From Volutella citrinella (lineage: Eukaryota; Ascomycota; Sordariomycetes; Hypocreales; Nectriaceae): a stretch of DNA of 64,000 nt. The notes under the pieces are model-generated. The model ran no database searches, was not told the DNA's origin, and saw only the letters and a list, made by a program, of their open reading frames with translations. Below, piece after piece: positions 3,755 to 60,186 of the stretch (positions are counted from its first letter, which is position 1; each line of letters starts with the position of its first letter). The position numbers and the translations under genes are program-made. The DNA lies in the NCBI GenBank assembly GCA_034401135.1, contig JAWZSP010000010.1, positions 372,001-436,000 on the forward strand. Direction: 5' to 3'.

Positions 3755-4102
3755 TTGAAAGAAAGAGCCAGAAACTGCTTTCGGCGAAATCGGCCAAGCA
3801 ACTAACGTTATTTATTACCCCGCCCACTCAGAACTAATAGAACGGTCCATATTTCACAAAGATTTTGCCCACACTTTCGCACGGTAGAATTGGGTTCAAG
3901 CATTTTACATGCGCAGCCCATGGTTGTTCAAGCTGCATAGGGCGAGTGTTTGTTGGTTATTTCTCCTATATTAAAGACCACCGCTCTATGCTAACAGTAT
4001 ACAGATGCGGACTGAACAGATTCGACTCTTTATCAGCACTGTCTTGCCCTTTGATCTGATTTTGTCCTTAAGCGGTTGCGAGATCCAAATCGGACAACGA
4101 TC

Positions 4103-5950: not shown

Positions 5951-7084
5951 AATAGACTGGCTCGCTGGTATTATAGAGCCCCCAGGCCTATGCATCGAGC
6001 TCAGTAGAGTTGGCTTGAGACCAAGCTTTCGTATGCGTTTGCTGTGAGTTTGACAGGGGGGTTCATGGAAAGGGTCAGTATACGTAGTTCTATATATCAA
6101 GCACATGATAAGGATAGGTTTATTACATTAGTCTAGCTCTGAGTGTCGGAACGGTTCATCTTGAGATGAAAGGCTTTACTTAGACAACTGCTGAGGTTGC
6201 TCTACTATAATATATCGAATTAATCTGATATCGTGAAGCAAGCAATGCAGTAGCTAAAGAACCAGGAGAAAGAGTACTCACACCTTGCGATACTGACTGG
6301 TATCGCCTTTGCCTTACTCCTTTTGAGAAGCAAGAATCCCCAACTCTTGTGCCAGCTAGGGTAGCGCACACAAACAACATAACTGCATATTCACTTACTT
6401 TACTTCCCTCTCTATGAAACTATTGAGCTGTATCTGACCTACAGCGCCCATGCTGCGAAATTCATCCTTAGCATCAGTGATCTGAGCATAAAGTGTGCAG
6501 TCCCGGAAGATAGCGCACGAGAGACCACAGGGCTACGATTTGTGCACACTATTAGTCAGGTAGGCCGAGTTTTGATAGTGCAGAAGTTGGGTTTCATTAT
6601 TCTAAAACCACGGCAGAACGTCTCGGCCTGTCTCAAGAACATCTCCAAGTGAATGAATCCTTGCCCTTAATGACAGGTTGTGAAAGACTGTTAGGCATGT
6701 TCTCCTTCAACTCTTGAGTGCAGACTCTAGGAGGCAAAAAGCAGAACCTTCGGACTATTTAGGAAGCAGAATAATTAAGCATAGCCCTTTTGAGCCCTGA
6801 TGCAATCAGTAGTGTAACGGTGCACTCATCATTGCATTGTGTCGTCATGGAAGCGTCCAATACTGGCCGTTGAGTGTGCATTACGTAGACTGGATTGGAT
6901 AATAAACTAGAGATCTCCCTCTCATCGGCCGGTCTTCCCGTTTCATTGCTGATCAGAAGGCTAAAGCCAGATTGGAACCATCAGTTTGTGGCCGTTTTCG
7001 TTCCTGTAGTGGTATTTTAGTAGCATCATCCGCCAAAATTTAGTCAGTCATTAGAAAATGAAGACCAGGCGTGAAAAACACATT
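5951..7084. other. Intergenic, AT-rich
   Basis: About 1.1 kb between two same-strand genes. It is AT-rich with short hydrophobic open stretches but no splice-compatible gene. It presumably contains the TPR gene terminator and the LysM gene promoter. Confidence 0.4.
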
Positions 7085-25424: not shown

Positions 25425-25847
25425 GGCCGATAGTGGACGGACTGCTGTGAGTGGATGGCTCCATTTAGCGTCTCCAGCCCCATCTGTACCACCACAACGC
25501 AGCTGGTGTGTGGCAACGATGTCCCCATTCAATTGCGGACATTCTGCGCGGCTATCACGGTACGGTACAATGCCAAGTTATGAGCACGGGTTCACCTTTA
25601 CCAAGCCGGCTGAAGCGTACGGTAATAGAAGCTGCTGAGCTGGCCGCAACACATACGCAGACAATTCTACGAGTGGCCAATTCAAGTCTGGCGCCAGTGA
25701 ACTGACCCCACACTTGGCCTGAACCGGAAGGTCAAATTCAGCGGCTTCAAGCAGATTACTAATTACGCCAGTCCAGGAACCGTCGGTTTGGACACCAGAA
25801 AGTGCCGCAGTCGGGTTCCGGCTAAGGGCAGCATTATTCCCACAGCG
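25425..25847. other. Intergenic between repeats
   Basis: No gene recognised. Overlapping open frames in this GC-rich zone lack introns, domains or starts and are treated as chance. Confidence 0.35.
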
Positions 25848-26119
25848 AGCAGTGCGAGCAAGCCACGTGACTTTTAGCACCGCTAGCTGTGCGAGCAAGG
25901 GTCTTAAGTCAGCTGTTGCTTGCGCGGGCTCCAGCAGGTTACAGGCCACAGCGACCAAGAGCTTATTGTCACGCCTGCTGTGGCCCGATGCGGCCGGAGC
26001 TTGCGGTTGCTGGTGGCGGTTGTGGCCCGGGGCGCTGTGGCTAGGCTTCGGGAGCTGTGGCACAACTTGGGGCGCAGTAGCTTGGGGCGGGCGGCTGACA
26101 TAAGACTCCGCTAGCGGTG
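25848..26119. mobile_element. Foldback/MITE-like element, copy A (inverted relative to B)
   Basis: The left part contains CACCGCTAGCTGTGCGAGCA at 25,878. The right end reads GCTGACATAAGACTCCGCTA then GCGGTG to 26,119, so the ends are imperfect inverted repeats of about 30 bp built around the palindrome CCGCTAGCGG. The interior (GTGGCCCGGGGCGCTGTGGC and flanks) is the reverse complement of parts of copy B at 28.4-28.85 kb, with an internal deletion. A short extension (GTGCGAGCAAGCCACGTGAC then TTTTAG) outside the left palindrome is also shared with B. It has no coding capacity, so it would be non-autonomous. Confidence 0.6.
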
Positions 26120-26439
26120 AAGGTAATACTCCCTCCGGCTGATTACGGCTGATTAATAGGGCATCGATGGAGAGATGGGCTAATTAATCCATTGTCCGGT
26201 CTTCCCAGTCCTCACAGAACCATGCGCCTCTAGGCACCATTGAAGGCGCCACACCATTGCCCAGACAGGGATACATCGGTGTTTCAAGGGGATGCTGCCT
26301 TATTCTACCGAAGGAGGAGGTTTCAACACCTGGGCGAATGCAAAGCCCGGCTGGATTGACAGTCGGTCGGCGCACGAGCCGTGGTGCAATGCGCGCACGC
26401 TCCGTGATATGGAGCGGTTAGGTGGGTGGGCATTTCCCA
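26120..26439. other. Intergenic
   Basis: No gene or repeat recognised between copy A of the foldback element and the hairpin array. Confidence 0.35.
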
Positions 26440-26985
26440 CTCCCGCATGTGCGAGATGATCTCGTCCTTGTGATGCAATGCTCCTCATTTGAGGAGCGCA
26501 TGGAGAGCATGTACGACTAATTCGTCTTTGATGCATTGCTCAATACTTCAGGGGCGCATAGATGTAGGCGGACGCCATTGCCATTCCGGCCTGTGCGAGG
26601 GTTTCTCATCCTGATGATGCAACACTCCTGCGTGGGAGTGCATGACAGTGGCAAGGGGCAGCGCCTCATTCCTGCCTGTGCGATCATATCGCTTGAGATG
26701 CGGCATTATAGCTTCGCATGTGCTGGTCTTCAGAGAGCAGATGAAAGGCATCATTCCTGCCTGTGCGATCATGTCGCTCGAGATGCGATACTCCGACGTA
26801 GGAGTGCATGGTAGCGGCAAGGGGCAGCGCCTCCTTCTTGCCTGCTCGATCATCTCGTTTGGAATGCGGCATTATAGCTTCGCATATTTGTGCTGCTCCT
26901 CAGGCAGAGAGGCCAATGGGGCACTCCTGGCTCAGCGATCATGTCGACTTCGATGCTTTCGCAGGCGGTGCTCCTACTTAGGATG
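26440..26985. repeat. Degenerate ~83-bp tandem array with hairpins
   Basis: The core CTGCCTGTGCGATCATNTCG followed by CTYGAGATGC recurs at 26,672, 26,757 and ~26,838, with weaker copies near 26,444, 26,588 and 26,927. A 166-bp higher-order unit is visible: GGCAAGGGGCAGCGCCTC at ~26,650 and ~26,816, and GCGGCATTATAGCTTCGCAT at 26,700 and 26,866. Several units carry a short hairpin such as ACTCCGACGTAGGAGTGCAT or GCTCCTCATTTGAGGAGCGC. Open frames here are by-products of the repeat. Confidence 0.65.
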
Positions 26986-28354
26986 CACAATCCAGAAGCA
27001 GAAACCTCCCAAGTGATGATGGGAGGGAGACCACTCTTTATACGGCGAAAGAGGTGGAGCGAAGGGGCAGCCTCTAATACAAAACAAGGTCGGATGACGC
27101 GGATGAGCCTTTGTTGTGGGGCTGACCCGAAGCGAAGCAGCGACGTTCCGCTAATACTGTGTACTGTCGTAGACGACCAAGAGGCCCAATACACACCTGG
27201 TGCCCTTGCACGCCAATGTTGGCACATGCGGACTAGTGGGTAGAGTGAAAACGCGAGTGAGTGATGCGCGGCACGAGCCCCGCTGGCAGCACACAAAGTC
27301 GCTCCCTATGAGCTTCCTACCTGATATCCGAGATGCCTTCATTATCCCGGGGAAAGTATGCAGGGTGAGGCCGTCTGCCTTCCTCTGCTCCTTTGTTCAC
27401 CTTGAACGCCAGCAAAGGCCGCGCTGGGTGGGGGCGACTTGGGCGAGTCGCGCACGCATGGTTGCTTGCAAGGGGGCCTAAATTGGCTAGCATGGGGTGA
27501 TCATCTCTTCGAAGAGATGGGTCGAGTGGGTCCGAGTGGTTGGTGAAACAGCTGCTCGGCGGATGTGCCAGGCGGCGCGGCTTGTCTGAGCGTCGGGCAT
27601 AATAGTAGATATGAATTATTATGGTTCATCGGGGTGGAGTTTGTTTCCTTGACTCTTAGCACAATTAGAAGCAGGGCAGAAGCACCTAACGTATAATAAA
27701 GGGCTTACTACATGTATGGACACGCGCTGTGCTCTGGAAAATTTTGTTCTGTTTTCTTTCGGTCTCGTCAGATTTTTTTGCGTGTTTGGTCGAGCGTAGG
27801 GTAATACGATGCATGAGGGCATTTTCAGCTCGGACACAGCGCAGGGACCAATTAATTTTACCACCAAGACACAGTCCATTCCACCCACCCACCAGCCTCC
27901 TTGTCACCATGGTTCCGCTCGGATTCGCGGGCCGGCTGCTGGCCCCGAAAGCTTGCTTGAAGCATGTTGGGAGCTATAAGGGGGGTGTCCTTGGGGCAAT
28001 CGATGGATGCAGGCAGCTTCGAGTCTTAGGATTAAGAGAGGACGAAGAGGTCCGTCACTTGAGGTGGGTGAACGCGCGCTCCCTTCTCGATCCACTCACT
28101 TACAGCTCCACCGCCAGTCATTCGATTTGCCCGGCCATCATGTGACATGCAGCCAATGCAGGCTGTTTCCTTGGCTCCAGCTGTTTGCACACACTTGTGT
28201 GCCAGTGCCACACGTGGCTACTGCATAGCCGGAGCCTGTTGCGGAACGGCTCCACTAACATGAATGCGCATTAAGGTTGTTCCGCCCAACACTCGAGGCT
28301 GTGGGGTGGGATTCACATCGACAACTCCGAGCTGCGGGCCATCTCAGTCACAAA
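26986..28354. other. Gene-poor repeat-flanking region
   Basis: No convincing gene. A CT-rich leader ending in CACCATGG at about 27,904-27,911 resembles a fungal start context, but the 78-codon frame that follows (MVPLGFAGRLLAPKACLKHV) has no recognisable domain or splice partner. Confidence 0.35.
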
Positions 28355-28851
28355 CACTCGGCCGTCGAGCAAGGGGTCTTAATTATGTCAGCCGCTCTTA
28401 ATGGCCACAGCGCCTGAGGCCCAGCCACAGCGCCCCGGGCCACAACCGCCACCGGCAACCGCAAGCTCCGGCCACATCGGCTGCCAGCCACAGCAGGCGT
28501 GACAATAAAGCTCCCGACCACAGCGGGCTCTCGACTATAATAGGCCTATTGTTGCGCCTATTGTGGTCGGAAGCCCGCTGTGGTCGGGAGCTTGTTATTG
28601 CGCCTGCTATGGCCGGCAGCTGCGCCTGTTGCGGCCAGGAGCTTGCTGTTGCCTGGGCGCCCGTTTTGGCCAGAAGCCCGCAGTAGCTGGGAGCCTGTTG
28701 TCAGGGCATTGCGGCCTATAGCCCCCCTGTAACCCAGGTGTGCCCTGTAACCTGCTGGAGCCTGGCCAAGCAACAGCTGACATAAGCATTGCTCGCACAG
28801 CTAGCGGTGCCAAAAGTCATTGGATGTGTCTTACTCGCACCGCTAGCTTAC
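28355..28851. mobile_element. Foldback/MITE-like element, copy B (longest)
   Basis: The left end begins CGAGCAAGGGGTCTT then ATGTCAGCCGCTC. The right end has AGCTGACATAAG, then GCTCGCACAGCTAGCGGTG, then CCAAAAGTCATTGGATGTG and CTCGCACCGCTAGC. The ends are imperfect inverted repeats. The interior is a large imperfect palindrome: the left arm has CCACAGC... GGGCTC units and the right arm the complement GAGC... GCTGTGG units, meeting near 28,540-28,560. It would fold into a long GC-rich hairpin. It shares end and interior sequence with copy A (inverted) and copy C. No transposase is encoded. Confidence 0.62.
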
Positions 28852-32373: not shown

Positions 32374-32812
32374 CTAGCTCTCAGACTCGGCCGCAGTTAG
32401 ATCAATTTCCATCTGAACACCTTGAAGGCAGCTTTTCAACTGGTCGAGAGCTATGATGACGCGACTCAACCTATCTGACAGAGTATGGTCAACTCTGGTA
32501 GATGAGCGGTCTCCAGACCTCTGAGGCCAGAAGTCCCGAGAAGCCATTGATGGCTCAGCTGAAGTCTGTGAGTCGAGTTCAGAGTCAGAGTCTGCTACTA
32601 CAAATTGACGATCACTAGATGTCTCTGAGTCTTCATCACTGGAAGAATCATCCCAGTCGCCCTCTATAGAGCTCTCCTCAGACCCATGGTCTACCTCGGT
32701 GGTGATTAGATTAATACTTGATAAGACAACACATGAAACACCCACCTGTGAGCTGAGAGCCCTGGTTCTCATCGTGGATACCACGACCCGACAGTCTAGT
32801 TTGGGGAGACAT
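32374..32812 (-). CDS. Small acidic Ser-rich protein, family member 1
   Basis: Exon 1 is 32,746-32,812 (67 nt, MSPQTRLSGRGIHDENQGSQ...). A 55-nt intron follows (GTGGGT, branch TCTAATC, acceptor GGTAG), then exon 2 at 32,374-32,690, for 127 residues. The frame is kept by G|AC. The middle is very acidic (GDWDDSSSDEDSETSSD). The C-terminus carries a helix, LSDRLSRVIIALDQLKSCLQ then GVQMEIDLT. The same helix closes the protein at 37.8 kb (LSDRVGTALLAVEHLKSCLE then GVRTEVDQL). Both genes have 67-nt first exons, phase-1 introns of 55 nt and an Asp at the junction, so they are paralogues. The function is unknown; an acidic linker plus amphipathic helix suggests protein binding. Confidence 0.65.
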
Positions 32813-33840
32813 AATTTGTAGACGAACTAGAAAAGGTGTGCCCAGGTTAAGTATCAAGGCCTGCCAAATAAATAGCAAATGCTACTTATACAAAAGAACC
32901 CCTGTTGACTGGAAATCTAGTTTCAGACCTTTATTTGTTATGTCTTGCTCTCACTGGCTTTCCGGTCGCGGAGGGCTTTGCCTATCGAAAACGCTTCTTT
33001 CAGCTTCGTTATCCATGATAGCCCATTTTTGCAGTAATAATAAACGTAGAAGCTGGTAAAGGAATATTGTTCAGGGCTCAAAGCGAACTGGTCATTTGCT
33101 AGAGTGCACGTGGTGTGGCACTCAAAGCACCACTACAACCACGCAGCCTTCACTTGCAATGCTGCGCAGAAGGACGGCTTCTTGACGGCACGTCAAAATT
33201 TATCTAGAGTTAGGTAATGCAGTCGGAGAGGGCAGTGTCTGCCCTCATCCTGCATCAACTGTTGGTATAGTATTTCCAATATGTTGGTAGCCTCGTTCTA
33301 GTTAGATTGCCTGCAACCGAAGCCCAACACACTCCAGCCTCCAAAGCAAGAAACTGATATAGACAGGGGCATCCTTTTTCCCTAAAGGGCTGCGACGCAT
33401 AGGGAGCTAGTCCGTACAGTACACTCGTAGGCAGTAGAATGAATGGCCGCAGGCCCGCAGCTGGGCTCAGCATACCCAGGCAAGGCCAGTATGATTGATA
33501 GTCAGATTGAGACTGTCACTTACCCGGCATGGAACTGACCAAGGGCCAATGATCCGAAGTCCAAAAGCCCCTCCTCAAATCCAATGGCCCCGCTGATTCA
33601 TGTCCAAAGGCCCCAACTGTCCCGACAGACATGAGTTCTCCAACACACAGGACGCAAGCCCCTCATTTGCACCCAACGTGACACTGATAGGTCTGCCCAA
33701 CGTCCCGCCCTTGCCAAAAGACGACGCCTAGTATCGAGCCGGTGATGGGCCTGGGGTTGGGCGCGCGGTATTCACCACCAGTCATCAACCTCAACGCCCG
33801 AAGCAAGTATTTCGAACCTAGATCTCGCGCTCCCTCGCAC
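32813..33840. other. Intergenic
   Basis: No gene recognised in about 1 kb. Short frames have no domain or splice support. Coding-like traces of the following relic begin near 33,840. Confidence 0.4.
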
Positions 33841-37754: not shown

Positions 37755-38304
37755 TCAATTCAGTTGATCAACTTCCGTTCTAACGCCCTCAAGGCAACTC
37801 TTCAAGTGTTCCACGGCCAATAGTGCAGTTCCAACTCGGTCAGAAAGCGAGACCTTGCGATGTGGAACTGAACTTGTCGCCGCGCGGCCTAGACGAGAAC
37901 AAGGAGAGGAAGCGCCTCGTTCATAGCCCGAACTGATAATGCAGCGAGACTTTCCGCGTTGCCGGGTCTTCACAATTCGACATGGGCTCAAATTCGTCTG
38001 GTTCAATGAATTCACTGGTGTTCTCAAGTAGGGCGTTGTGGGTTGCTCCACGACGTCGTTTGTGACAATGTTGGTGGCAAGATCAGGACCACCGACACTT
38101 GAGCTTGTAGCTGCTTCATGGCAACGCCCGTCGTCATCGTCACTGAAAGAGCCATCGAATTCTCGTTCCTTAGAATCATCATCTAAATGGTGGCTGTTAG
38201 GCTTTGCTCCAGCAAACCTAGGACTGAGCACTCCCACCGGGTATTTGGTAGTCTATTGCCGTGCTATGGGCATGGGCATGACGATTTGAAGAATATGAAC
38301 TCAT
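37755..38304 (-). CDS. Small acidic Ser-rich protein, family member 2
   Basis: Exon 1 is 38,238-38,304 (67 nt, starting MSSYSSNRHAHAHSTAIDYQ). The 55-nt intron is 38,183-38,237 (GTGGGA, branch CCTAAC, TTTAG), and exon 2 is 37,755-38,182, giving 164 residues with the frame kept by G|AT. An acidic segment (DDDSKEREFDGSFSDDDDG) follows the junction, then a basic Ser/Arg linker (RIVKTRQRGKSRCIISSGY), then the helix VSLSDRVGTALLAVEHLKSC, LEGVRTEVDQLN. The closing helix, intron position, intron phase and exon-1 length all match the gene at 32.4 kb. The linker is longer and more basic here. The function is unknown. Confidence 0.65.
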
Positions 38305-38756: not shown

Positions 38757-39587
38757 ATGGCTTCTTGTGATGTGTTTGATAATGATGACGCATGCAAATA
38801 TGAAAACGTGGATCAAGGGCATCCAGAGCCGACAGTCAATGCAAGGGGCGTTGAGAACAGCGATTCTTGCTTCATGCGATTTGGCTACCTTCCAGCGGAA
38901 ATTCGACGAATGATCTGGAGATTGGCATTTGACGATGTAGACCCGGCCGTTGCTGTTTGCACATCTCTGGCAGGCCGTTGCCGAGCTACAGTCAAGCAAC
39001 GCCACACACGAAGCAGTCGTTTGCCCTACGTAGCACTATCTTGTCGAGAATGCAGGCAGGAGTGGTACCGGTCTACAAGGTCATGTAAATCTCCAGATGG
39101 GCTTCCTGAACAGATATTTGTCCCTCGGACAGTTTTCCTTCTCCCTGCGGCCTCGGTTATCAAATGTCAACCACGAGGTCTCGGTCTTCATCTAGCACAC
39201 GTCGCTGTCGATATAGCTGACAGTCCCGACGTGTTTTTGGTCTTTGAAGCACTTGCCCGCCTACCCAGCTTGAAGACCATCATCATCATCATACCGTCGG
39301 TTATTGTGGAAGAGACACGGTTTGGAGATTGGCAGCAAGAACTAAAGGAAAGCACTCTCGCATTCCAACGAATCAGTGCACTTGTGGATAATCCATCGCC
39401 AGATGGTGAGTGGCACGAAGGGACCTCTGTTGGATGGCTACTTCGTCATTACCTAGACGGTGCGAAGGTGAAGGAGTTTTACCAGCGTCACGACAGCCCA
39501 CTGGTCAAAGCTCTCGTCGACCCGGCGAGAGAATATACTGCAAGTGAAGAGGGCGGAAAAGCTTGGCCCTTGATGTTGTATTTATAA
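38757..39587 (+). CDS. 2EXR-domain protein
   Basis: 276 residues, ATG at 38,757. Residues ~38-60 read FMRFGYLPAEIRRMIWRLAF, the start of the fungal 2EXR domain (F-x-x-L-P-x-E-I-R-x-x-I-W), an F-box-like fold found in very many lineage-expanded ascomycete proteins. The rest of the domain continues through LPYVALSCRECRQEWYRST, FVPRTVFLLPAA, LAHVAVDIADSPDVFLVFEA and LPSLKTIIIIIPS, which is the usual order. The C-terminal 60 residues are helical and close to the family norm. 2EXR proteins have no established biochemical activity; an adaptor role by analogy to F-box proteins is an inference. The gene is complete and single-exon. Confidence 0.75.
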   Translation: MASCDVFDNDDACKYENVDQGHPEPTVNARGVENSDSCFMRFGYLPAEIRRMIWRLAFDDVDPAVAVCTSLAGRCRATVKQRHTRSSRLPYVALSCRECRQEWYRSTRSCKSPDGLPEQIFVPRTVFLLPAASVIKCQPRGLGLHLAHVAVDIADSPDVFLVFEALARLPSLKTIIIIIPSVIVEETRFGDWQQELKESTLAFQRISALVDNPSPDGEWHEGTSVGWLLRHYLDGAKVKEFYQRHDSPLVKALVDPAREYTASEEGGKAWPLMLYL

Positions 39588-41557: not shown

Positions 41558-44076
41558 GCGTTATTGTGCCGAAATGAGTTGGCGACACATCTTTCCCACC
41601 GAAAACGAGGAATCCTGCCACCTAAATTCCATCTCTGGCCGTGGATTGGCCTGAAACATGCCATCTTCGACTGTTTTCGGACACTGCCTTGCCATGCGGC
41701 CAGAATTGGACGCTGCTTCGCTTCGGAACGACCGGGCAGAAAATGCACGGGCAAGGCCACCACTGGCGAATATCTCTCGTTCTTCCTTGTAATTTCAATT
41801 TTTTCGTCGTTACCAGACTGTCGGGTCGTTTTTGAGGTCGAGATAGGCCGAGAGTTGGGATGGTGGATGTGGAGGAGTTGAGCGAACATTTAGAGCCAAC
41901 ACACCTGAACGCTGTCCTCAGCTGCCAGGGTGAAAGGTCGGCCGCCGGCTTCTGTTGATGAGAAAAAGTGCCTGTATACGGACTAGTCTGAGTGCCGACT
42001 AGGCCGTGCATCGCTCTAGTCTAAGGCTTAGCTGATGGACAACGTTCTCTAGTGTAGTGTGAGATGTCATTCAAGGCCAACTTAGTGAACTCCTGTGTCA
42101 GACCAAGCCTGCCTGCACCAGTCAGTGCAGCCCCCATCCTGTGATACGTCGCTATTTCTGCTCGTAGTTATTCTACTCAGAAAATATTGCGGGCGTTTCC
42201 ATTATACGAATTTGGGTCTACATGGGACGAAGTCACCATCAGCGCTCATCGGCATTGTCAACGTTGTGGGGCGAGATTGGCGAGGTACTTCTCATTATCT
42301 AGCACGTCATCGCGCTAAAAATTTGGGGAATTCTTGGTTATTGCGGAGCCACTGTGATTCCAAATCCTAAACGACGATGGAGCCCTTTGAGCGTGTCTGC
42401 CTGGTCCGATTTGGCGCGCAGATTGCCAGGTCCTGCACAACATGCATCGGCAGTCAGAGCCGTCCAGTTGAGACGAAATTGGCGCATCACTTCGTTCACC
42501 CTTGTAGCTCACAACCAACCATTCTCAGCTCGGAGGGGTGTTGAACCAACATGTGGCGATGTCGCCCCACCACCACCTTGCCAAGCTTGCCAAGCCTGCC
42601 CCCCAACCCCCGAGCCTAACTTGCCTGTCACTATTGACTAGCGTATCAAGCGGAGAGAGACAGTTTAGTGGCATCGCCGTGTGGATTGTAGTGACGGATG
42701 GGTTGTAGTAGCGATTCTTCAGCTCGAAGCTACTGTGCAAGGTTAACCCTCTACGGTTAAGGCAGTTCGATTTGGGCTCGGGGAAGATATCCCGCGCGCC
42801 TTCCAACTCAGCACACCACTGCCCAATGCAGATGTAGTTAGATAGGCGGATGTTGGCCAAGCAAGCCAAGCTAAGTCATGAACTACCAGTACTCAGTACT
42901 ACTGTACGCTCCTCCCAGTGGAGCCATGGAGCGCGCCCTCTTCCGATTTGCCAACGCAGGATCATCGTGTTTCATTTTCCGGGGGTCTAATTGGAGCAAG
43001 CCCGATCCCACCGGATCGGCAATCTCCGAGATTTTCGCTTTTGGTGAAGTCCCGGGCCATGGCTATCATAAATCGAACCATAAGTGGATGACGTCTACGG
43101 CGTAATGAGGATTAGTCCCAGTTCCTGAGCTAATTTGGTTTCATGCTGTGCAGAGAGATCGCACACTGACCTGCATGCATGAACTGCGGGTCATGTGAAT
43201 CAATCCTGCGGGGGGAGGTGGCTTGCATTACTACCAGTAGCCTTATCTCTTGGCCGAAAATGGACGGAGCGGCAGTTGTATACGGGGATGCCACACTTTT
43301 TCGGCCCCATTTGGCTCGCGCCGTGGCACTTGGTTCAACGGTCCTCACTCCTCGGCCGACTGTCAACGGTGTTTGACCACCAAGTGGGCCAAGTGGGCAC
43401 TTGCTTGTATGCACAGACAATGGTCTTCACATTCAAGAACTGCCGTTTGGCACTTCCAATCACTCGCTAAACCAAATTTGACCGTTAGCGACGAACAGTT
43501 CCTCAGGGCCGAAATGTGCCGTTGGCCAGACCGTATCCTCTATGGGGCATCTGTGGATTCATTTACGACCAATTTGTCAGTCACCGTCTGAAAACTGCCT
43601 AAGCTAATGCCTGCACGACTCTGTCGGTCGTTCATGGTTCTTAGCCTGTAAGAGCGAGTCCGGTTACTTCAATCGGAACACACAATAAGAAACATACCGT
43701 AGAGTCACTTGAGGCGACTTATTCGCTACTCCAACAGTACCGTGGAATTCTTCCTCGAACTCCAAGTTAAAAGAACGTGAAATGCTATCTCCCGAGGTAA
43801 TAGGTAGATGGCTGATGCTCGTACTGATCTTACCGGGTTCGCTCTGACCCTTCCTTGCTGGAGATTTTGTTGGACGCGAGCATCTTTAGTCGCATTAGGG
43901 TGAACCAAACTGTCGGAATCGGCCAGAAAATATAAATCAAAACGCGGCTGTAGCACCCAGAGGGAGGACCAGTGCTTCCTCAATGCCCGTTCCACTCACC
44001 TCCCACTCAGTATTTTTCTCATCACATTTTTCTTGGCCTCTGTGGTACGAGTATAGCCCGCGGTGAACAACCCGCC
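41558..44076. other. Long intergenic region without a gene
   Basis: About 2.5 kb between the MADS-like gene (-) and the microexon gene (+), which are divergently transcribed. Many short overlapping frames exist on both strands but none has an ATG-led domain or consistent splicing. It probably holds both promoters and old non-coding DNA. Confidence 0.4.
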
Positions 44077-45433
44077 ATGAGCTATTACCGCACGGGTCAG
44101 AGGCCCAATTCTCCGACCGGAAGCAGGCAGTATTCTCATCGTAAGGACGATAAGGCCATTGCCAATGACAGGCAGCGGCGAAAGGCCAAGCATCGATATC
44201 CGAGGCAGGCAGGTACAAAACAGCATGCCTCGGATTTGCCTGCCACTGGCCGCCCTGCCTTGCCCGCCCCCACCTACCCTGGCCATACCTACGCTGGTTA
44301 CGCGGCGCCTGCCTTCCCAGCCCCTACCTTCCCGGCCCCTGCCTACCCGGGGAACTTCTCCAACCCGCAGGATATCCACCAAAACTTGATAACTCCTAAT
44401 TTCCAAATTAATCCACAACACCAACAACAAAACCAACATCCAGGCTTATATCACCCAAGCCGATATCCTACTGACGGGCTGTGTGATCAGGGACTCGCAG
44501 GGAACAATGATGGTACCCGCGTTCCAAGCATTGGCACCCCCCCCATTGAAGCTGCAAGGTATGTGCTACTTGATCTCCGCTGTGCATACGCCTAATCCGA
44601 AAAGCCTTTCCGATGGTGACACGACTAGTAGTCCATTGGTGGAGTACGCTGAGGATGCTCCCGTCGATTTGTAAGTCTCATAGTACCCACCGAAAATCCG
44701 CCGCTTCTAACTATATCGCTTCTTCTAGAGAATCCATGTACGTCCTCATTTGCCGGCCAGTTTTCGTATGCCATTAACTCAGTGCTACACAGGTTTGACG
44801 ACACAGAGTACGCAAATGCCCCATTGTATCCTTTCTATCGCATCTTCAATACTGGTCCCTCACTAACATGTTAAAAAAGGATGACAACCTCCACAATGTG
44901 AGTAGCGATATATGGGAGTCGCAACATCTGCTAACGGATAAACGTACAGACTCAAGTCATTGGTTCAACATCAGTGGGTGCTCACGTCTGCCTTGAAGCA
45001 ATAACGGAGATGGTAACTCAATGTTCTACAGGATTAACATGCTGCAAAAGCAAGACGAAATGTAAGTTTCAATGCTCTTCTTCGATGCAGTGGCATCTAT
45101 TGACTGTTGAATCACTTGTAGGCACTCGCAACTAAAGGGGAAACTCTTCGCAGAGTACGTGTCCATTCTACGGCTGTGAATTTAACAACTAACCCACACA
45201 GGCTCAAGGATTGGCTCAGAAGCTTCTTGGAGAATGATATGAAGAAAATGATGTTGGCCTTGAGCCTGGAGGTGGCCGCACTGGTCCAAGGCAGCGGTCA
45301 GCGCCACAACCAGGTCCACAACCAGGGCCACAGCCAGGGCCACAGCCAGGGCCACAACCAGGGTCATAAGTCAAATGAGCCCCTCACCGGGGACCCTGCC
45401 ACGTTGGACCCAACCCAGACTCAGTATAATTGA
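44077..45433 (+). CDS. Microexon-ladder gene encoding a Pro-rich coiled-coil protein, nine exons
   Basis: Exons: 44,077-44,558, 44,605-44,670, 44,729-44,737 (9 nt), 44,793-44,807 (15), 44,880-44,897 (18), 44,950-44,973 (24), 45,032-45,061 (30), 45,122-45,154 (33) and 45,202-45,433. All eight introns (46-72 nt) have GTRNGT or GTACGC donors, CTAAC-like branch points and AG acceptors. Every junction is phase 2, so each internal exon is a multiple of 3. The 302-residue product starts MSYYRTGQRPNSPTGSRQYS. It has a Pro/Ala/Tyr-rich region (PALPAPTYPGHTYAGYAAPA) and a Gln/Asn-rich patch. The microexons then build a helix (TSTILKSLVQHQINMLQKQD, EMHSQLKGKLFAELKDWLRS) that continues into exon 9. The protein ends in QGHS/QGHN repeats encoded by a 12-bp tandem repeat. 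No domain family was recognised and the function is unknown. Exon skipping would keep the frame. Confidence 0.85.
45311..45366 (+). repeat. 12-bp coding tandem repeat (Gln-Gly-His-Ser/Asn)
   Basis: CAGGGCCACARC repeats about four times within the last exon of the microexon gene, giving HNQGHSQGHSQGHNQGH. The length is likely polymorphic. Confidence 0.75.
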
Positions 45434-45670
45434 CCAGTCTGTTCATCCTGATCATGATAGTAACTGATCAATAACGAGAGATTGATGGAGAAGATATGAT
45501 GTCGGGGTGTTTGCCATAGTCGCTGCATGTATTATCGTGGATTTTATCACTATTGTTCACTTATCATTCACCTCCCAGACGCTCTGTGACGCCGAGTGTG
45601 CGTAGAATAGCCCATGACCCGATGCAGAAACATTGAACTGCACCATGTTATCTACACCCCGGATTTCCAG

Positions 45671-46117
45671 TTAAGCGTCCAAATTTCCAAGCTCTCTCTG
45701 ACCCTGGGAAGCCCCCCCGGGAAGCTCTGCCGTCTCTGACAGCCATATGCGCGGCGGGGAGACAAGCTCTGGTGGTATGCTGAATGGCGCGTTCGATGAC
45801 AGTCCTTGGGAAATTTCGGGATCATTCGGCGACATCCTTGTTCTCGACTGGCTTCCTTGTTCGGTTCGACTATTCGTTTCCAGATAGCTCATGTACTCAT
45901 CTCCCATTGTGACAAGACGATACTGCCAAGAGACAACGGCCTCGTTATGGATGATTTCTTTCCTCAACAAGTCGTATTCCCGTAGTAGCCTATTATGTTC
46001 CGCAGTGAGAAAGCGATTTCGATCGTTCATGCATTGAACTAGATGGTGAACCTCTGTCAAAGAAGCGTCTGTAGGGTACAAGGGTGAGGAAGCACCAGGT
46101 GTTGGTGTGCTTGCCAT
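45671..46117 (-). CDS. Coiled-coil orphan protein, 148 residues
   Basis: The ATG at 46,117 starts MASTPTPGASSPLYPTDASL; the frame upstream opens only with TTG. Residues ~20-75 form a charged heptad helix (TEVHHLVQCMNDRNRFLTAE, then HNRLLREYDLLRKEIIHNEA). The C-terminal half is Ser/Pro-rich and disordered (MSPNDPEISQGLSSNAPFSI). There is no basic region, so it is not a bZIP. It lies next to another coiled-coil orphan on the same strand (46.6-47.9 kb). The function is unknown. Confidence 0.5.
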   Translation of the reverse strand: MASTPTPGASSPLYPTDASLTEVHHLVQCMNDRNRFLTAEHNRLLREYDLLRKEIIHNEAVVSWQYRLVTMGDEYMSYLETNSRTEQGSQSRTRMSPNDPEISQGLSSNAPFSIPPELVSPPRIWLSETAELPGGASQGQRELGNLDA

Positions 46118-46641
46118 GGCGAATAGTAAACACCGCAGGGTTGTGAGTTGCTCAAACCAGTGACTATATGGCAAGGGCTAGACTTTATATATCCGCCAGA
46201 GATATCTTAACCGCCCAAAAAGGCTTATCAATACACACCGCATAGGTACAAACTGTTTCATCCCAATTAAGAGCCATAAATGCTTTTTAATCGTGAGTAT
46301 CGGTGTGGACTAGGGAGATGGTAGTTTTCGTTACTCCATCCAAATCCCGACGCTCAACTTACTCGGAAATAACATAAGATGCACAGCAAGGTATATGAAG
46401 TAGACGGTTTGTGGCATTATGGAAAAAAGTCTTTTGCTACCTGAAAGATACAATCCCTTTCTCAATCATGTATTTTGGTACACTTAGCCATCCTCTCATT
46501 GCCAGAGCCCAACCATACCGCCGCACCTTGGAATTTCTGCTCACTTGAATAGATTATGGAGCTGCCTGTCAGAAAGATAATAGTAGAATATCACATACGA
46601 GTTCTGAAGAATGACCTCACTGCTAATGCGCATTAGACGCT
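46118..46641. other. Intergenic
   Basis: Spacer between two minus-strand coiled-coil genes; it holds a TATATA-like motif near 46,186 upstream of the shorter gene. Nothing else was seen. Confidence 0.4.
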
Positions 46642-47892
46642 TCACTGAGTATGTGATGTGAAGAGCGATCGTTTCCCTGCACCATGACGTACAAAGCAGC
46701 CCAATAGAGTATCAAATAGACCTTTTGTCTTGGAAGCATCGTCAACTTGTTGATACCTTGCTGCACACTCGGCGATGGCCGCATGAAGTCCGGCCGCCTC
46801 GGACTCGACCACGGGTACGACGTCCTGTAGCACTCTTCCAATCAATTGTTGGTGAAAGGAGCACTCTAGCTGCAAATGTCTGTATAGACACCTCAACTCT
46901 GTGAGCGTCGTGGCATCTGTGGTTTCATCCAAGCCCCTCAGTAGTGGCCCCTGTGTGCCTAGGCGTGGGTAGGTGCTGGCTTCAGCCACCGCCCGTTGGC
47001 TCGGTTGTCCTGCACTCTTGTCTCGTGCGTCAAGAAGAAAGCGGCTTTCTCGAACCCAGGCATCATTTGCTTCCTTTAGTATAGAATCACTTTTGTTGAT
47101 TGCGTGATGAATAGTGTCAACAAAGCTTCTTACTTGGGAAACAAGTTTCATCAACCCGTCAAATGCTAGCTTCCTCTCCATGGCAATGTCCTGCCTCAGC
47201 TTGCCATTTTCACGACTCAGTGTCACCACGAGAGCTTCAGCAGTACTATTTCTACCAAGCTGCCCTGTTAAGGGGAGTTTTCGGTCGCCTGCGCTACGAG
47301 CAGGCCTATGTCGGAGTACTTCCTCATGTTTTCGGGATCCACATTGGTCGCTCTCTGTCGAGGAATCCGCTTTTATCGTGTAGGACAGGTAAATAGGCAC
47401 TTCGGCAAACTCTAGGTTCTCATTTGTTGTTAAAGGCTTCTGAAATCCTTTTATTACGAGTTCGTAGTCTCTCAGCGACCAAAGAAGTTGTCGGATCGGC
47501 TGTTCGAGGGAGCACAACAAACTGGGTAAGACACCGTAGGCGAGGCTGGCAAAGTACTCAGCCTCGTATTGAAGCCTCCCGTTTTCTCGGTTTAACTCGA
47601 CGACTCGGCTCCGGAGCGACGAAATAGCCTTGCTGTTACGCTCAGGAGGAGATGTAAGGTCAAACGCGGTGGTAGTTCCGCCGTGCCGACGTATCTCGTA
47701 GTCTATCTCTTGTGGCCAGGGTGGTGGTTCCTTGTCTCTCCGAGGTGAATTCTGATGATTGCTAAATGTTATGACCGACATGCGAGTCTCGGACGCGGAG
47801 TGAGCTCTGACGAAACGACCTTTAAGTAGCAGCATCGAGGGCAAATGCGGCTCCGAGCGCCTCTGGCACCATTCTGCCTTAGTACGATGCAT
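46642..47892 (-). CDS. Coiled-coil orphan protein, 416 residues
   Basis: Starts at a true ATG (MHRTKAEWCQRRSEPHLPSM) in one exon. Residues ~85-135 (AISSLRSRVVELNRENGRLQ, then YEAEYFASLAYGVLPSLLCS) and ~215-270 (EALVVTLSRENGKLRQDIAM, then ERKLAFDGLMKLVSQVRSFV) are two related helical blocks. Each is introduced by an R-E-N-G-[KR]-L motif, suggesting an internal duplication. A third helical block spans ~320-380 (LTELRCLYRHLQLECSFHQQ). No enzymatic motif is visible. It is possibly a structural or adaptor protein; no family was recognised. Confidence 0.55.
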   Translation of the reverse strand: MHRTKAEWCQRRSEPHLPSMLLLKGRFVRAHSASETRMSVITFSNHQNSPRRDKEPPPWPQEIDYEIRRHGGTTTAFDLTSPPERNSKAISSLRSRVVELNRENGRLQYEAEYFASLAYGVLPSLLCSLEQPIRQLLWSLRDYELVIKGFQKPLTTNENLEFAEVPIYLSYTIKADSSTESDQCGSRKHEEVLRHRPARSAGDRKLPLTGQLGRNSTAEALVVTLSRENGKLRQDIAMERKLAFDGLMKLVSQVRSFVDTIHHAINKSDSILKEANDAWVRESRFLLDARDKSAGQPSQRAVAEASTYPRLGTQGPLLRGLDETTDATTLTELRCLYRHLQLECSFHQQLIGRVLQDVVPVVESEAAGLHAAIAECAARYQQVDDASKTKGLFDTLLGCFVRHGAGKRSLFTSHTQ

Positions 47893-49381
47893 ATCACATT
47901 GCCAATTTGGCTCTGTTTTTAGAGAATGAGGTGGACATGCACGGTTCTGGCAGGGAACACCACGGAGTCACAATGGCAAAACCTTGCGAAGACATGGAAG
48001 AGCCGAATTTATTAATTCCCCTCAGACGTGAATTGACATGGTGGATGGAGAGTGTTTCCTTGGTTAGGTCGCCAATGAGCGAGAGCGTCAGACAGGGCTT
48101 CGCTTGCGGCCTTGTAACTGGATGAGAACATGTCCATTTTGGGATTCTGCCTCAAACGGTAAACGTCCAAGAATGAGGTCCCTTACGAATATGTTGTCCT
48201 CCATATGAGACAGGTTAACTCAGCTTAATGATCCCATGCCCGCAGGACGCCTCGAAGTGCTGATGCATAGTGCTTCGGTGCCCTGCTTTTCATCTAAGCA
48301 TCTTTTGGCCAAATTTGTGTGGACCAGCCCTACTACTGCAAGCCCCTTCCAGCCTCCTTCGTCCACCAGCATGATCTTGCGCCTGAGCAGGGTTCTGGCC
48401 TTCAAGCCATTGCACGGGTACCACGGAGCAGTGCGATACTGCTAAAATGGCCTTACCGATCTTCGTTCAATCTAGCTACTCATCGTATCATGCAGGGACA
48501 CAGAAGCAGATGCGGCAGACCATCCTGCGGCAGCTGGCCGTGGCAACGCCACGAATCAGTTGCCAAAATTGGTCTAGACAGTAATGCGATGCGTCATTTT
48601 CGAGCAACTATTTTGGCTCAAGCCAACAGTTGACCTCTGACGATGAAACCCGCTTTTGTACGAGCACCCCCTGGGCTCCATTCGTCGTCCAGTTTCTCCC
48701 ACGACGCAGAAGCCGGCCTGTGTAGACTATGCCCCGCCCACACCGTCAGGGATGGCATTATGACGCGAGTACGGATCCAGCTCATGGGACCGTGCACGGC
48801 AGTGGGAATGACCCCTGAGTCCATGAAGGTTCTCCACACCTACCTGGCTTGCGGGAGCTGAGAAGGGTTGCGTTCAAGTCCCAAAGTGTGGAGAATGCTT
48901 CAGGCTCGTGAGCATTGGGGGTAGCGCAACCCACTAGCCATGTATGGAAAGATTTGCTGCCGCCACACCTGAAGCTGAAGGCCTGGCGTTTAGAAAGTGG
49001 CACCACGCAGGGCCTGCGGCGCTTAACGCCAACCGCCATGCCAAGGAAATCTCCACTCCTGAATGTCATCCTCTGGGCTTCGGATTGCGCCCTCAACGAA
49101 CCAACCTCCTCCTAGCTCGTAAGCCGCATTTCTTTGCGTTCCCATGGAAGCTATTCGCAGCAGGCATGACAGCCAAGCTCGACCATTTGCATTGACCACA
49201 ATGGAGACGAATGGTCACGGTTCCCCTTCTCGGTGGTTGTGTCCGGAGCGCCTCTTTGCTTGGCATGCTCAATTGTCCAGATTCACATGCTGGCCCGAAG
49301 CAAGATTGATTGGCGGAGTTTGTCAGGCTTGTCGTGCGTATTGCTCCCCGGTGAAACGGGGGCAAGCCCGCATTAAGAGCA
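47893..49381. other. Intergenic, no gene seen
   Basis: 1.5 kb upstream of the 416-residue coiled-coil gene. GC-rich with overlapping short frames on both strands and no coherent coding or splicing signal. Confidence 0.4.
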
Positions 49382-49785
49382 CACCGCTAGCGGTGCGAAC
49401 AAGGGGTCTTATGCTAGCCGCTCTCAATGGCTGATAGCGCCTGAGGCCTCGCCATAGTGCTCCAGGCCACAATAGCCACAACGGCCACCGGCAAGCGTAG
49501 GCTCCCAGCTACAGCAGGCTCCCAGCCACAATGGGCTCCCGGCCACAAGCGGGCGCAACAACAAGCTCCCTAACAGAGCAGACTCCTGCGCCTGTTGCGG
49601 CCGGGAGCTTGTTGTGGCCGGAAGCCCGCTGCAGCTGGGAGCCTGCTATCGCCTGCGGCCGCTGTGGCCCAGGGCATTGCGGCCTGTAGCCCCCTGTAAC
49701 CTAGGTCGCTGTGGCCTGTAACCTGCTGGGGCCTGGGCAAGCAATGGCTGCCACCTGGCGACCAAAACCTAGCAACCTAGCGTGT
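49382..49785. mobile_element. Foldback/MITE-like element, copy C
   Basis: The left end is CACCGCTAGCGGTGCGAACA then AGGGGTCTTATG and CTAGCCGCTC, nearly the best copy of the family end. The interior repeats CAGCCACAATGGGCTCCCGG on the left and GCGGCCGGGAGCTTGTTGTG on the right, forming a long imperfect palindrome centred near 49,580. The right end is degraded (GCAAGCAATGGCTGCC, then AGCAACCTAGCGTG). It has the same orientation as copy B, 21 kb away. Non-coding. Confidence 0.6.
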
Positions 49786-51629: not shown

Positions 51630-53519
51630 ATTGCGATGTAGCGGATCGCGCATGGGAATTTCGCGCGGTGAGGAATCAAGTCGATGGTGTCGATCGGGTG
51701 GAGAAAGAAGAGAAGTGAAGTTGGGTGAGGTTGAGGCCTTAAAGAAGCACGCAACTGTCGGCTGGGCTGGGCTGATCGCATCTGGCTCCGCATCTTGATT
51801 CCTCGCGTCGGGAGGAAAGAGACCATAGACGGCACTCTAGTCATAAATGATAGGATTGCTCCATGTCGCGCAATATCGTTCCCTGCTAGATAATAGTAGA
51901 TGTCTACGTCCAAGTGATAGAAACATCGATTGGTCCAGTAACAATCGCGTTACAAGGATCAAGCCTGGAAATCCAGTGGAATGGCGCGCAGGGGCCGTCC
52001 TTCGCGTCATATATCCTTCTGTGCCACTCGCTGCTCGAGACTAGTACATTATGTCACACGGCATTGCGGCCAAGCTGCAGACATATGCCGCCAGCCCGCT
52101 GTGGTCCCCTATGCAGCGGCCCTAACCCCATTAAACTCATCCCAGCACGACCTTGTTCTGACGAGCACGTTTCTTAGTTAGCTGCAGAATGGTGCTGTTC
52201 CTCATGCGACCTGTCAATTTGTGGTTGGTGCATCGACCATTCAGGCGGGGCGAGTTATCCTGGAGAGGGGCGGGCCTGAGGCCAGTCACTTACTACTGAG
52301 ATTGACAGACGATTCACAGACGATTCGCACTCGCCGCTCTCTTTAGATGAGGAAGTAGGCTGCGGCTGGTTGAGGTTTACCCATGTTGCGGCAAAGGAGA
52401 GATCCTTCTACTTGTTACTAGGACCTATACCTGACATTGTGGCACAGGAAAACACGCCAAGGCAGCCAAACACGCCATCATGGATATTAGGCTCTGAGTC
52501 GCGCCTGGCACAAGCGGCGTTCCAGGGGCAGCACTCCGGCTAGCCCTTAGAAGTGCATTGAACCGAGGACCTGGGCTGGAGGGGTCTCACATTAAGGCAA
52601 CAGGGTTTGGCTGATCCGCCCAATCATTTTGTTATGTTATTCCTCAAAAGGATTGCTTATTCGGCCACCTTTTGGGGGCGGGGGCTGGGGCGCTGGAAGG
52701 CTCTACGTCTTAGTTGCTCCGAATTCAGGGTGACTGTAGCTGCTCACGAATGTGCAGACGCAGTGGCAACTGACCGTGTTGGTTAGTCCCTAGTCGCATT
52801 ACTTGGGATGCCCGTCACCCAACTGATCTGTTATATATGCGGGCTACTTATGATCCTTCTCTTTACCTCCCACTTCATTATCGACAACTCAGGTAACAGG
52901 TCCAAGCATCCAAATCGTGGTGGTGTTATACAGGGGCGTGCCTCGACGAGTGCTTTTGTTTCGGCTCACCACAAGTCCCGAGTGGGCCAAAATGCAAACT
53001 AAGGTAATGTCGGTTAGATGATGCCACCTAAGACCATTGCCTCTTCCTACCCTGGTCAGATGAAATGATGGTGACAGCTTCCGAATCTGTTCTCAACATG
53101 ACTATTCCGGCCTCTCCGCAACAGCCATCAAAGGGCTGCCTGCAAGCAACCCAGTTCATGAATGGTCAGAAGGATGGCGAGGTTGCTAAGACTATGCAGA
53201 AACCCTTATATTTCTTCACTATGATGGCCCTTGATAGTAGTCTTAATAAAGAATAACTCAGTCTTCTTCCCCACTAAGTCCTTTTCGATTCCATTATTAT
53301 CAGATGCACTATTAATAGACTCTCCGGACTTATCACCTTTGGATTTAAAGTTACTAGATCCTTAGTTAGTTAGCATGCTGCCTTCTCTCAACAATAATCC
53401 GCCGCCCTTGTCCACTTTCTTCCATTCCCAACCCAGCGTTGCCTATAAATCTATTCAAACTACCCAAACGATACAACCCTCGAGATCACTCCGCTTGTTT
53501 AAGTCACCCTACTCTTGAT
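51630..53519. other. Intergenic with weak open stretches
   Basis: A plus-strand frame at 52,808-53,002 (MPVTQLICYICGLLMILLFT) begins with an ATG and a hydrophobic segment. Another frame at 53,065-53,256 follows a CCTGGTCAG acceptor-like site. They did not join into a convincing gene and are not called. The rest shows nothing. Confidence 0.35.
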
Positions 53520-58408: not shown

Positions 58409-60180
58409 TTAATTCCCATCACTATCACCATCGCCATCGCCATCAGCATCACCATCGCCATCAGCATCACCATCGCTATCACCACCATTACTATCACCAT
58501 CACCATCGCCATCACCATCGCCATCGCCATCAGCATCACCATCGCCATCAGCATCACCACCATCACCATCACCATCGCCATCACCATCACCATCGCCATC
58601 ACCATCACCATCGCTATCACCACCATCACCATCACTACCATCACCATCACCATCACCATCACTATTATCCTCATCCTCGCCCTGTTGTGGGTTGATCTTG
58701 ACGCTATCTGCTGTGGCTGTCGCCCCCTGTCCTGACACTGCAGGGCGAAGCTGTTCCTGTCTTGTATTAATACCTTGTTCCTGATAGTTTCCGTCATCGC
58801 CGTCCCCTCTCTTTCTTTTTTGCGACCCGGAATCGAGAATCTTGGCAATGAGTGCCTTGTCTTCGTCAAGTTGTTCCATCCGCACCTCGTTGTAGCACTT
58901 GATCGTTGTGCTCTCCTCCATGCTCCGGATTTTTGCGCGAACTTGGATCTCGCTCTTTCCCTCATCGACCGATACAAAGACGTTGATCACAGTCCCCTTT
59001 TTGCATTTAGGGAGACTACATATTGAAAACTTGGCCAGCTCAATGTCGCAGCTGAGGTCACTAGACTCCCCCTCTGCAATGGTGAAGTCGACGCTTCTTT
59101 GATTGGTATCCGTTGTAAACAGGGTGACGGGACTCTGCGGCAAGGGTAATTGAGTATTGTGCCTCCACAGAGGATGCATTTTCAACTGTCCTTCGTCGTT
59201 GTATGCCTCAACTCGTAGATCACGAGGCAAGACATTAATGACTGTGACCTCTGGATGCGACGCCAGGTATGCTGCCCCGCGAGCGATGGCTTCTTCTGGA
59301 CTCGAGCAGTCAACCTTTTTGCCTGGGAACATTTTTTCGCAAAGCAGCTTGATGCCTGGCAAGCGGGAGGATCCACCAGCGAGGACAATGTGGTCGACGA
59401 TTTCTTTGGTTCTCCTTCGTTCGGGGTCGAAAACTTTGCCGATGGTTTTCTCTACCTTCTCATAGAAGTCTTGGCACAGGTCGTCGAACTCTCGGCGGCT
59501 GACATGTACCTCTTCTGGCTCCTCAGACTCAGGCCCATGGATCAGGATCACTTCGCCTTCTTTTTGGCACAGCTCTCTCTTTCTCTTTTCGCACTCCTGG
59601 AGCAATTTGCGATCGTTGATCTCGTATGAGACTGGTGGGGCCTTGTCCTTGGCGAATTGGGCCAGCTTCTTGTCGATATCCGCACCGCCAAGTCGGATGT
59701 CGCCTGCTGTGGCTTCGACGAGAATACTCGTACAGCCTTGCTTCGTCATCACCAAACTCACATCGGTCGTGCCCCCCCCCAATATCTACAACGAGCAGAT
59801 ATGTTCCTTCGGGCGTCATCAACTGTTTGTTGGACTGGATGAAGTCGATGGCGGCAGCAGTTGGCTCCGATATGAGCCGGGGCTTATTGAACCCGGCAAT
59901 CTCAGCTGCGTACAATGTCGCGCGCTTCTGCATCAGGCTGAAGTAGGCCGGGACAGACAGGACAAGATGGGGCTCTCGGTTGTACTTGGCACGAAATGTC
60001 TGTCCAATATGTGCCAGTATATACCCCGCTAGTACTTCAGGGGCGATTTTGATGTCACCCACGTCGAACACGGGGCCGCTTCCGCCCTGTGCAGCATATT
60101 CGATCTCGTCCATGTCATTCTCGAGGCACGGATCTTTCCAGTGTCGGCTGGAGAACGGGTTGGCCGCATATCTTTGGCCA
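58409..60180 (-). pseudogene. Hsp70-like chaperone, 5'-truncated, frameshifted at a G9 tract, with Asp-Gly tail
   Basis: Reading from 60,180: QRYAANPFSSRHWKDPCLEN, a middle ATPase part (APEVLAGYILAHI, HLVLSVPAYFSLMQKRATLY, ISEPTAAAIDFIQS) and the phosphate-2 motif VVDIGGG. A run of nine G (59,772-59,780) then shifts the frame; eight would give DIGGGTTDVSLV and leave the rest open. After it come the adenosine motif (DHIVLAGGSSRLPGIKLLCE), a substrate-binding beta domain (INVLPRDLRVEAY, FTTDTNQRSVDFTIAEGESS) and a ~95-residue (Asp-Gly/Ser)n tail in place of the helical lid. The phosphate-1 loop (DLGTT) and the first ~70-100 residues are absent upstream. An active Hsp70 would fold proteins using ATP; this copy probably cannot unless missing exons and the shift are resolved. 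A sequencing error in the G run is possible. Confidence 0.7.
58420..58675. repeat. CATCRC microsatellite-like coding repeat (Asp-Gly tail)
   Basis: The plus strand reads (ATCACCATCGCC)n with ATCAGC variants; the minus strand codes GATGGTGATGGC, giving alternating Asp and Gly. It is the 3' end of the Hsp70-like gene. All other long frames across it are by-products. Confidence 0.85.
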
Positions 60181-60186
60181 AGCTAG

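Follow-up and report, generated by a model that had tools for sequence, protein, structure and literature searches.

The window, i.e. the whole 64-kb stretch of DNA analyzed here, belongs to a genome of 45.1 Mb in 26 contigs and carries on its plus strand, at positions 44077-45433, a gene with six consecutive very short exons (referred to below as the microexon gene). Nine exons of 482, 66, 9, 15, 18, 24, 30, 33 and 232 nt are separated by eight introns of 46, 58, 55, 72, 52, 58, 60 and 47 nt. The introns are of phase 2 throughout, as are all seven internal exons. When the exons are joined, the spliced product comprises 302 aa, and the six microexons contribute 129 of the 909 nt of coding sequence. 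A preliminary description made from the letters had given the same coordinates, exon lengths, phase and 302-residue product, all of which were reproduced exactly. Features of the locus are listed below, with posteriors from the gene finder.

43931-43936 (+): TATA-like hexamer found by sequence search, some 145 nt 5' of the start codon; putative function as core promoter
44077-44558 (+): exon 1, 482 nt, with the start codon, a basic N-terminus and a Pro-rich and Gln-rich low-complexity region (top parse)
44559-44604 (+): intron 1, 46 nt, phase 2, AAG acceptor (posterior 0.986)
44605-44670 (+): exon 2, 66 nt; 42 or 39 nt with alternative acceptors
44671-44728 (+): intron 2, 58 nt, phase 2 (posterior 0.992)
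44729-44737 (+): microexon 3, 9 nt (gene-finder parse)
44738-44792 (+): intron 3, 55 nt, phase 2, TTAAC branch (posterior 0.960)
44793-44807 (+): microexon 4, 15 nt (gene-finder parse)
44808-44879 (+): intron 4, 72 nt, phase 2, AAG acceptor (posterior 0.901)
44880-44897 (+): microexon 5, 18 nt (gene-finder parse)
44898-44949 (+): intron 5, 52 nt, phase 2 (posterior 0.931)
44950-44973 (+): microexon 6, 24 nt; 36 nt with the donor at 44986 (gene-finder parse)
44974-45031 (+): intron 6, 58 nt, phase 2, with the weakest donor, GTGGGT (posterior 0.602)
45032-45061 (+): microexon 7, 30 nt (gene-finder parse)
45062-45121 (+): intron 7, 60 nt, phase 2 (posterior 0.988)
45122-45154 (+): microexon 8, 33 nt (gene-finder parse)
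45155-45201 (+): intron 8, 47 nt, phase 2 (posterior 0.973)
45202-45433 (+): exon 9, 232 nt including the stop codon, with the remaining helix-prone segment, QGHS/QGHN tetrapeptide repeats and the C-terminus

Several other frames were distinguished in the window. Two frames convergent to the microexon gene (45671-46177 and 46642-47967, both on the minus strand) appear helix-rich by eye and match no Pfam family at E 0.01; a genome search with the second of them returned only the self match at E 0.01. Two short orphan frames about 5 kb apart (32377-32826 and 37758-38252, minus strand) resemble each other in their C-terminal parts, where a motif shows 42% identity across 43 aa (E 1.4e-6), and the latter frame likewise matched only itself in the genome at E 0.01. 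The frames 435-614 (-) and 51942-52178 (+) are 43% identical over 44 aa (E 2.3e-4). Short related repeats are common to 25581-28816 and 49326-49776 in several frames; they probably represent a dispersed DNA repeat and not proteins. At 58412-60182 (-) there is an HSP70-like gene in two overlapping frames, reflecting either an intron or a broken gene, whose end continues into a long tail of Asp/Gly repeats. On the plus strand, 4055-5950 encodes a 631-aa tetratricopeptide-repeat protein with TPR_10/TPR_12 repeats, and 7055-8467 is a 470-aa frame with a signal-like hydrophobic start (by eye), a Ser/Thr-rich middle and no Pfam match at E 0.01. No RNA families were found within positions 43000-47000.

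All eight introns of the microexon gene begin with a GT[AG]NG[CT] donor and contain a plausible branch site and an AG acceptor. The preliminary description had assigned such signals to each intron, which proved correct, although three of the eight branches and two of the eight acceptors are non-consensus. The branch conforms to CTRAY in introns 1, 2, 4, 5 and 8 and to TTRAY in introns 3 and 7, while that of intron 6 is GTAAC or an overlapping CTCAA (the latter recognized by eye). The acceptor is YAG in six introns and AAG in introns 1 and 4. According to the excerpted source, Fusarium core genes have a CTRAY branch in 91% of cases, a YAG/R acceptor (the slash marks the junction) in 94% and RAG in 5.7% (PMC5677156). 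Judged beside these figures, the introns appear acceptable yet somewhat weaker than average.

We compared the array with chance expectation by means of three approaches. The first was a scan for strict splice sites with exons of 6-42 nt only, using patterns that agree with common fungal consensus but were set after the eight introns had been seen. At the microexon gene the longest chain of strict introns in frame numbered eight; it never exceeded two in 3000 dinucleotide shuffles (0 in 1496, 1 in 1483 and 2 in 21 of them). Owing to the 42-nt exon limit, intron 1 of the strict chain ends at 44628, which gives an exon 2 of 42 nt; introns 2-8 are identical to those described previously. The second was a scan in tiles. 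Among 1776 overlapping 700-nt tiles covering both strands of 314 kb of the 45.1-Mb genome, with exons of up to 60 nt allowed, only three contained a chain of at least three introns, and all three lie on the microexon gene. A scan of 264 kb in which asymmetric exons were allowed revealed a chain of at least four at this gene only.

The third approach was a gene finder that combined splice frequencies from Fusarium with local codon usage and imposed no constraint on phase or symmetry. Its best (Viterbi) parse is exactly the nine-exon chain listed above. For codon usage, the training set consisted of 26 ORFs from the same 264 kb; the microexon gene was excluded from it, and these ORFs are possibly among the 136 ORF starts parsed for comparison (starts less than 3 kb from the far end of the strand read were left out of the count). 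Microexons of at most 36 nt were absent from 128 of these parses; six parses had one, one had two, and the microexon gene had six. In the other 135 parses the predicted introns were distributed over phases 0:1:2 as 42:29:25, and 18 of the 50 internal exons were symmetric. The earlier view that the pattern is not an artefact is borne out both by the shuffled chains, which stop at two as against eight, and by the identical phase-free parse. These sequence signals lend good support to a real microexon array, which appears to be unique in the part of the genome scanned; the scans covered 314 kb and 264 kb, and further microexon genes may be present elsewhere in the 45.1 Mb.

The individual exon edges differ in certainty. 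At the standard intron rate, the posteriors are 0.97-0.99 for introns 1, 2, 7 and 8, 0.90-0.96 for introns 3, 4 and 5, and 0.60 for intron 6, where the alternative donor at 44986 (posterior 0.324) would extend exon 6 to 36 nt. Intron 1 has alternative in-frame acceptors ending at 44628 and 44631. Neither exon 2 (66, 42 or 39 nt) nor exon 6 (24 or 36 nt) has certain edges, and for this reason a strict ladder of lengths is less secure than the array itself. The sampled posterior of the full parse is 0.52 at one intron per 500 coding nt and 0.33 at one per 2000.

It is conceivable, if unlikely, that the exon chain is partly wrong, i.e. that the gene ends earlier or uses other junctions (the donor at 44986 or the acceptors at 44628, 44631 or 44806), and that the ladder is an artefact of choosing the nicest parse. 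Earlier-ending parses win when codon information is switched off, and also when a very low intron prior (very rare introns) is combined with a weak codon weight; since the parse depends on codon information and the intron prior, splice signals alone do not prove the chain. Moreover, the runner-up parse (weight 0.27) interrupts the ladder, the strict scan used the acceptor at 44628 for intron 1, and some branch sites and acceptors are non-consensus. Against this, the full model ranks the nine-exon parse first at both intron rates, the Viterbi path is the same chain (the model is of the same kind and so not independent), and the shuffles never chained more than two strict introns.

The monotonic increase in microexon length pointed out in the preliminary description holds in the top parse and is broken once the well-scored donor at 44986 is used. 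A strict rise of six distinct lengths has a chance of 1/720 for one preset order; this order was noticed post hoc, and the flanking 66-nt exon stands outside the series. The rising lengths are probably a coincidence.

From its sequence, the product appears to be a low-complexity protein consisting of a basic N-terminus, a Pro/Gln-rich part, a helix-prone part and a QGHS tail. The N-terminus (MSYYRTGQRPNSPTG) is hydrophilic and shows no secretion signal by eye, and there is a single cysteine among the 302 residues. The tetrapeptide repeats of exon 9 correspond to 12-nt DNA repeats at 45286-45369. Residues 181-280 are free of proline and in part rich in helix formers, so the segment encoded by the microexons is probably helical. 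The earlier suggestion that it forms the first heptads of a coiled coil fared poorly, as a test for hydrophobic a/d enrichment over residues 196-256, which assumed an unbroken register, found no single heptad register (P = 0.62). Of five angles tried, 98 degrees gave a nominally significant helical moment (P = 0.011); with a free angle the moment was not significant in any of three segments (P 0.095, 0.45 and 0.23). The idea of a helix tunable by exon choice is similarly weakened, because the microexons encode 3, 5, 6, 8, 10 and 11 aa, none of which is a multiple of 7.

To identify relatives, the product was compared with about 5.8 billion proteins; neither the whole product (E up to 1) nor residues 160-256 (E up to 10) gave a relative. 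A search at E up to 0.001 with the neighbouring 2EXR gene (38757-39584) gave 16 relatives, of which the named ones all belong to Fusarium or Ilyonectria, the closest being those of F. decemcellulare (60%), Ilyonectria sp. (56%) and F. solani (55%). This one gene suggests that the host is a Nectriaceae-like ascomycete. As named Fusarium proteins are present in the collection, the empty search is informative; since it requires shared 5-residue words, it can miss relatives of a fast-evolving low-complexity protein. Comparison with Pfam, NCBIfam and PDB gave weak matches only (E 0.07-0.9), those in Pfam and NCBIfam being far below cut-off. The preliminary statement that no named fungal family with this layout is known agrees with the failure to find protein, Pfam or NCBIfam relatives of the 302-residue product. 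No second copy of the gene was found in the 45.1-Mb genome by a search that skips very common words. Of two weak genome matches, L005 on C5 (E 0.012, 28% identity) was set aside, as it involves mainly the low-complexity region and its ORFs show nothing beyond composition by eye; the other, L006 on C2, has an E value of 0.98. The microexon gene is most likely a fast-evolving orphan, apparently present in a single copy.

Intron definition has been proposed as the prevailing mode of splice-site recognition in fungi, and intron retention accounts for 61% of fungal alternative splicing events, compared with 3% for exon skipping, in the excerpted source (PMC3925392). A Fusarium study, likewise excerpted, describes accurate splicing of even a 1-nt exon (PMC12940212). 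The default expected for the array is thus constitutive inclusion, with failure by retention. In the microexon gene, retention of any one of the eight introns introduces an in-frame stop and shortens the product to 172-233 aa. By contrast, omission of any subset of the seven internal exons preserves the frame to the same stop (128 of 128 subsets), as had been noted previously for the internal exons.

We consider it fairly probable that the locus is a fast-evolving, apparently single-copy gene of a Nectriaceae-like fungus, in which six microexons encode a linker and helix-prone segment and splicing is constitutive, by intron definition, to a 302-residue product. Each short intron (46-72 nt) would be recognized as a unit, so that the tiny exons would need no special machinery, and the array would yield one protein. 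Splicing failure would usually mean intron retention and a premature stop after 172-233 aa, so that the array would act as an all-or-nothing gate and would not offer a choice of isoforms. The basic N-terminus, the lack of a secretion signal by eye and the low-complexity arms suggest that the protein could act inside the cell as an adaptor whose partners are joined through the helical part; this proposed role is drawn from composition only.

In schistosome micro-exon genes (MEGs), symmetric exons no longer than 36 nt occur in runs and make up most of the coding sequence, and the products are mostly secreted, with a signal peptide. The fungal gene shares such a run of short symmetric exons; here, however, the microexons occupy only 129 of the 909 coding nt. 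MEGs, together with the bicycle genes of aphids, are the nearest look-alikes of the locus, and the seven symmetric internal exons might in a similar manner be combined variously to give products differing in helix length and choice of partner. We regard this as improbable. All internal exons are symmetric and of phase 2, and the skippability of all 128 subsets fits such variability as well as it fits constitutive splicing. Among fungi, the microexons of NLR genes in Tuber melanosporum are described as alternatively spliced (PMC4986451, PMC3689799, PMC10197012) and that of Trichoderma as regulated (PMC11121469), as far as the excerpted sources go. On the other side stands the low share of exon skipping (3%) among fungal events in the partly available source cited above (PMC3925392). 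A skipped microexon would, in addition, need a fused intron of 122-148 nt, which is possible though above the 56-nt median reported for F. graminearum in the excerpted source (PMC12940212). Parses with exon skipping received low weights at the standard intron rate, for instance 0.035 for intron 44898-45031, which became 0.109 at a four-fold lower rate; such weights order individual gene models and are no measure of how much an isoform is used. Pieces of 3-11 aa would keep no heptad register, and no single register was found in any case.

Bicycle proteins possess two CYC motifs each, and the single cysteine of the fungal product makes such motifs impossible. In the source as excerpted, bicycle genes have about 17 exons on average, many of the internal ones unusually small and nearly all of phase 2; they evolve fast, encode CYC motifs and have few relatives detectable by sequence search (PMC9168663). 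The microexon gene is also composed of small exons, of phase 2 throughout, fast-evolving and without found relatives, but it differs in its 482-nt first exon, its one cysteine, the lack of a secretion signal by eye and its occurrence in another kingdom, in a fungus rather than an aphid. The bicycle classifier, which was trained on an aphid and was applied with coefficients from the excerpted source (PMC9168663), gave it p = 0.0014, below the cut-off of 0.72.

The nearest fungal case is that of the nank (NACHT-ankyrin) NLR genes of T. melanosporum, which contain, according to the excerpts, many 3-bp microexons that are alternatively spliced (PMC4986451, PMC3689799, PMC10197012). Many microexons are common to both; the truffle genes, as far as excerpted, differ in having 3-bp exons and NACHT-ankyrin domains, while the exons here are 9-33 nt long. 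Neither NACHT nor ankyrin domains were detected in the spliced product, for which no Pfam family reached the cut-off. A 20-nt exon in Trichoderma Xlr2 (PMC11121469), a 1-nt exon in Fusarium CYP621A (PMC12940212) and exons of 2-10 aa in Phanerochaete P450 genes (PMC1184071), known from excerpts, indicate that very small exons occur in fungi and are spliced in Fusarium and Trichoderma; the excerpted text describes no consecutive array of uniform phase there. Apart from the truffle NLR genes, no similar run in other fungal genes was found among the matches listed from the open-licence literature, partly seen in excerpt, which is weak evidence.

A fungal counterpart of bicycle genes or MEGs, i.e. 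an orphan class kept by a phase-2 microexon skeleton, with up to 128 isoforms of differing helix length and with hidden sister genes, appears to us improbable. If such a class existed, sister genes in related fungi would have been missed or misannotated because predictors drop microexons.

Intron phases in F. verticillioides were counted as 215:172:147 in the excerpted source (PMC5677156). With these counts, the chance that eight of eight introns are of phase 2 is 3.3e-5, and that they are all of any one phase is 8.4e-4. Local codon make-up may explain part of the bias, depending on the type of site that introns use. Sites of the type [AT]/G, to which five of the eight junctions belong, fall in phase 2 in 29 of 47 cases within codons 161-256 and in 56 of 110 in the whole CDS. 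Given the junction trimers, eight phase-2 introns have a chance of 0.0135 on the local counts and of 0.0019 on those for the whole CDS, both slightly circular as the junctions are counted among the sites. In the same stretch, AG/[AG] proto-splice sites are distributed over phases 0:1:2 as 8:5:1 and [AG]/G sites as 17:9:14. Counts of this kind would point to phase 0, which leaves the codon account possible but not established. The introns are also dense: eight in 195 coding nt correspond to 41 per kb (Poisson P 5.7e-8, assuming one per 600 nt), an extreme local burst for a fungus, beyond ordinary gain.

Growth by duplication of exon-intron units, as proposed in the preliminary description, would leave the array as the worn remnant of tandem copies of one symmetric unit. 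Such copying would fix the phase automatically, in keeping with the uniform phase 2, and six of the seven units are of similar size (67-93 nt). Whole introns resemble each other at a borderline level in comparison with shuffles (P 0.057-0.197, with mean-score P of 0.057 and 0.067), which shared splice signals would suffice to produce. Intron cores (P 0.46-0.85) and exons (P 0.87-1.0), by contrast, show no excess likeness over shuffles, all of which preserve single-base composition only, and a repeat search at 14 nt or above showed the QGHS repeats only. We consider this origin very unlikely, although old unit duplications could have faded beyond detection. The bolder readings made earlier (a duplication ladder, a tunable coil and variable isoforms) are unproven or disfavoured.

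Introner-like elements are copies of a mobile intron and have been reported, according to the excerpted source (PMC4457414), from a few fungi. They would account for a burst of introns within one gene, but they were rejected as highly improbable since the intron cores are unlike each other and the 45.1-Mb genome contains no detected second copy of the gene, intron 4 or intron 7. Introns 4 and 7 gave self matches only at E up to 10 in a search that skips very common words, and introns 1-3, 5, 6 and 8 (shorter than 60 nt) were searched as part of the whole gene. A possible origin of the introns is local gain at [AT]/G sites, most of which are of phase 2 in this stretch.

Two questions could be tested on the microexon gene. 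One is to what extent consecutive microexons can be spliced by intron definition alone; the other is whether a uniform phase requires selection or the duplication of exons, or is in part a consequence of codon make-up. Genes of this kind may be hidden from automatic annotation.
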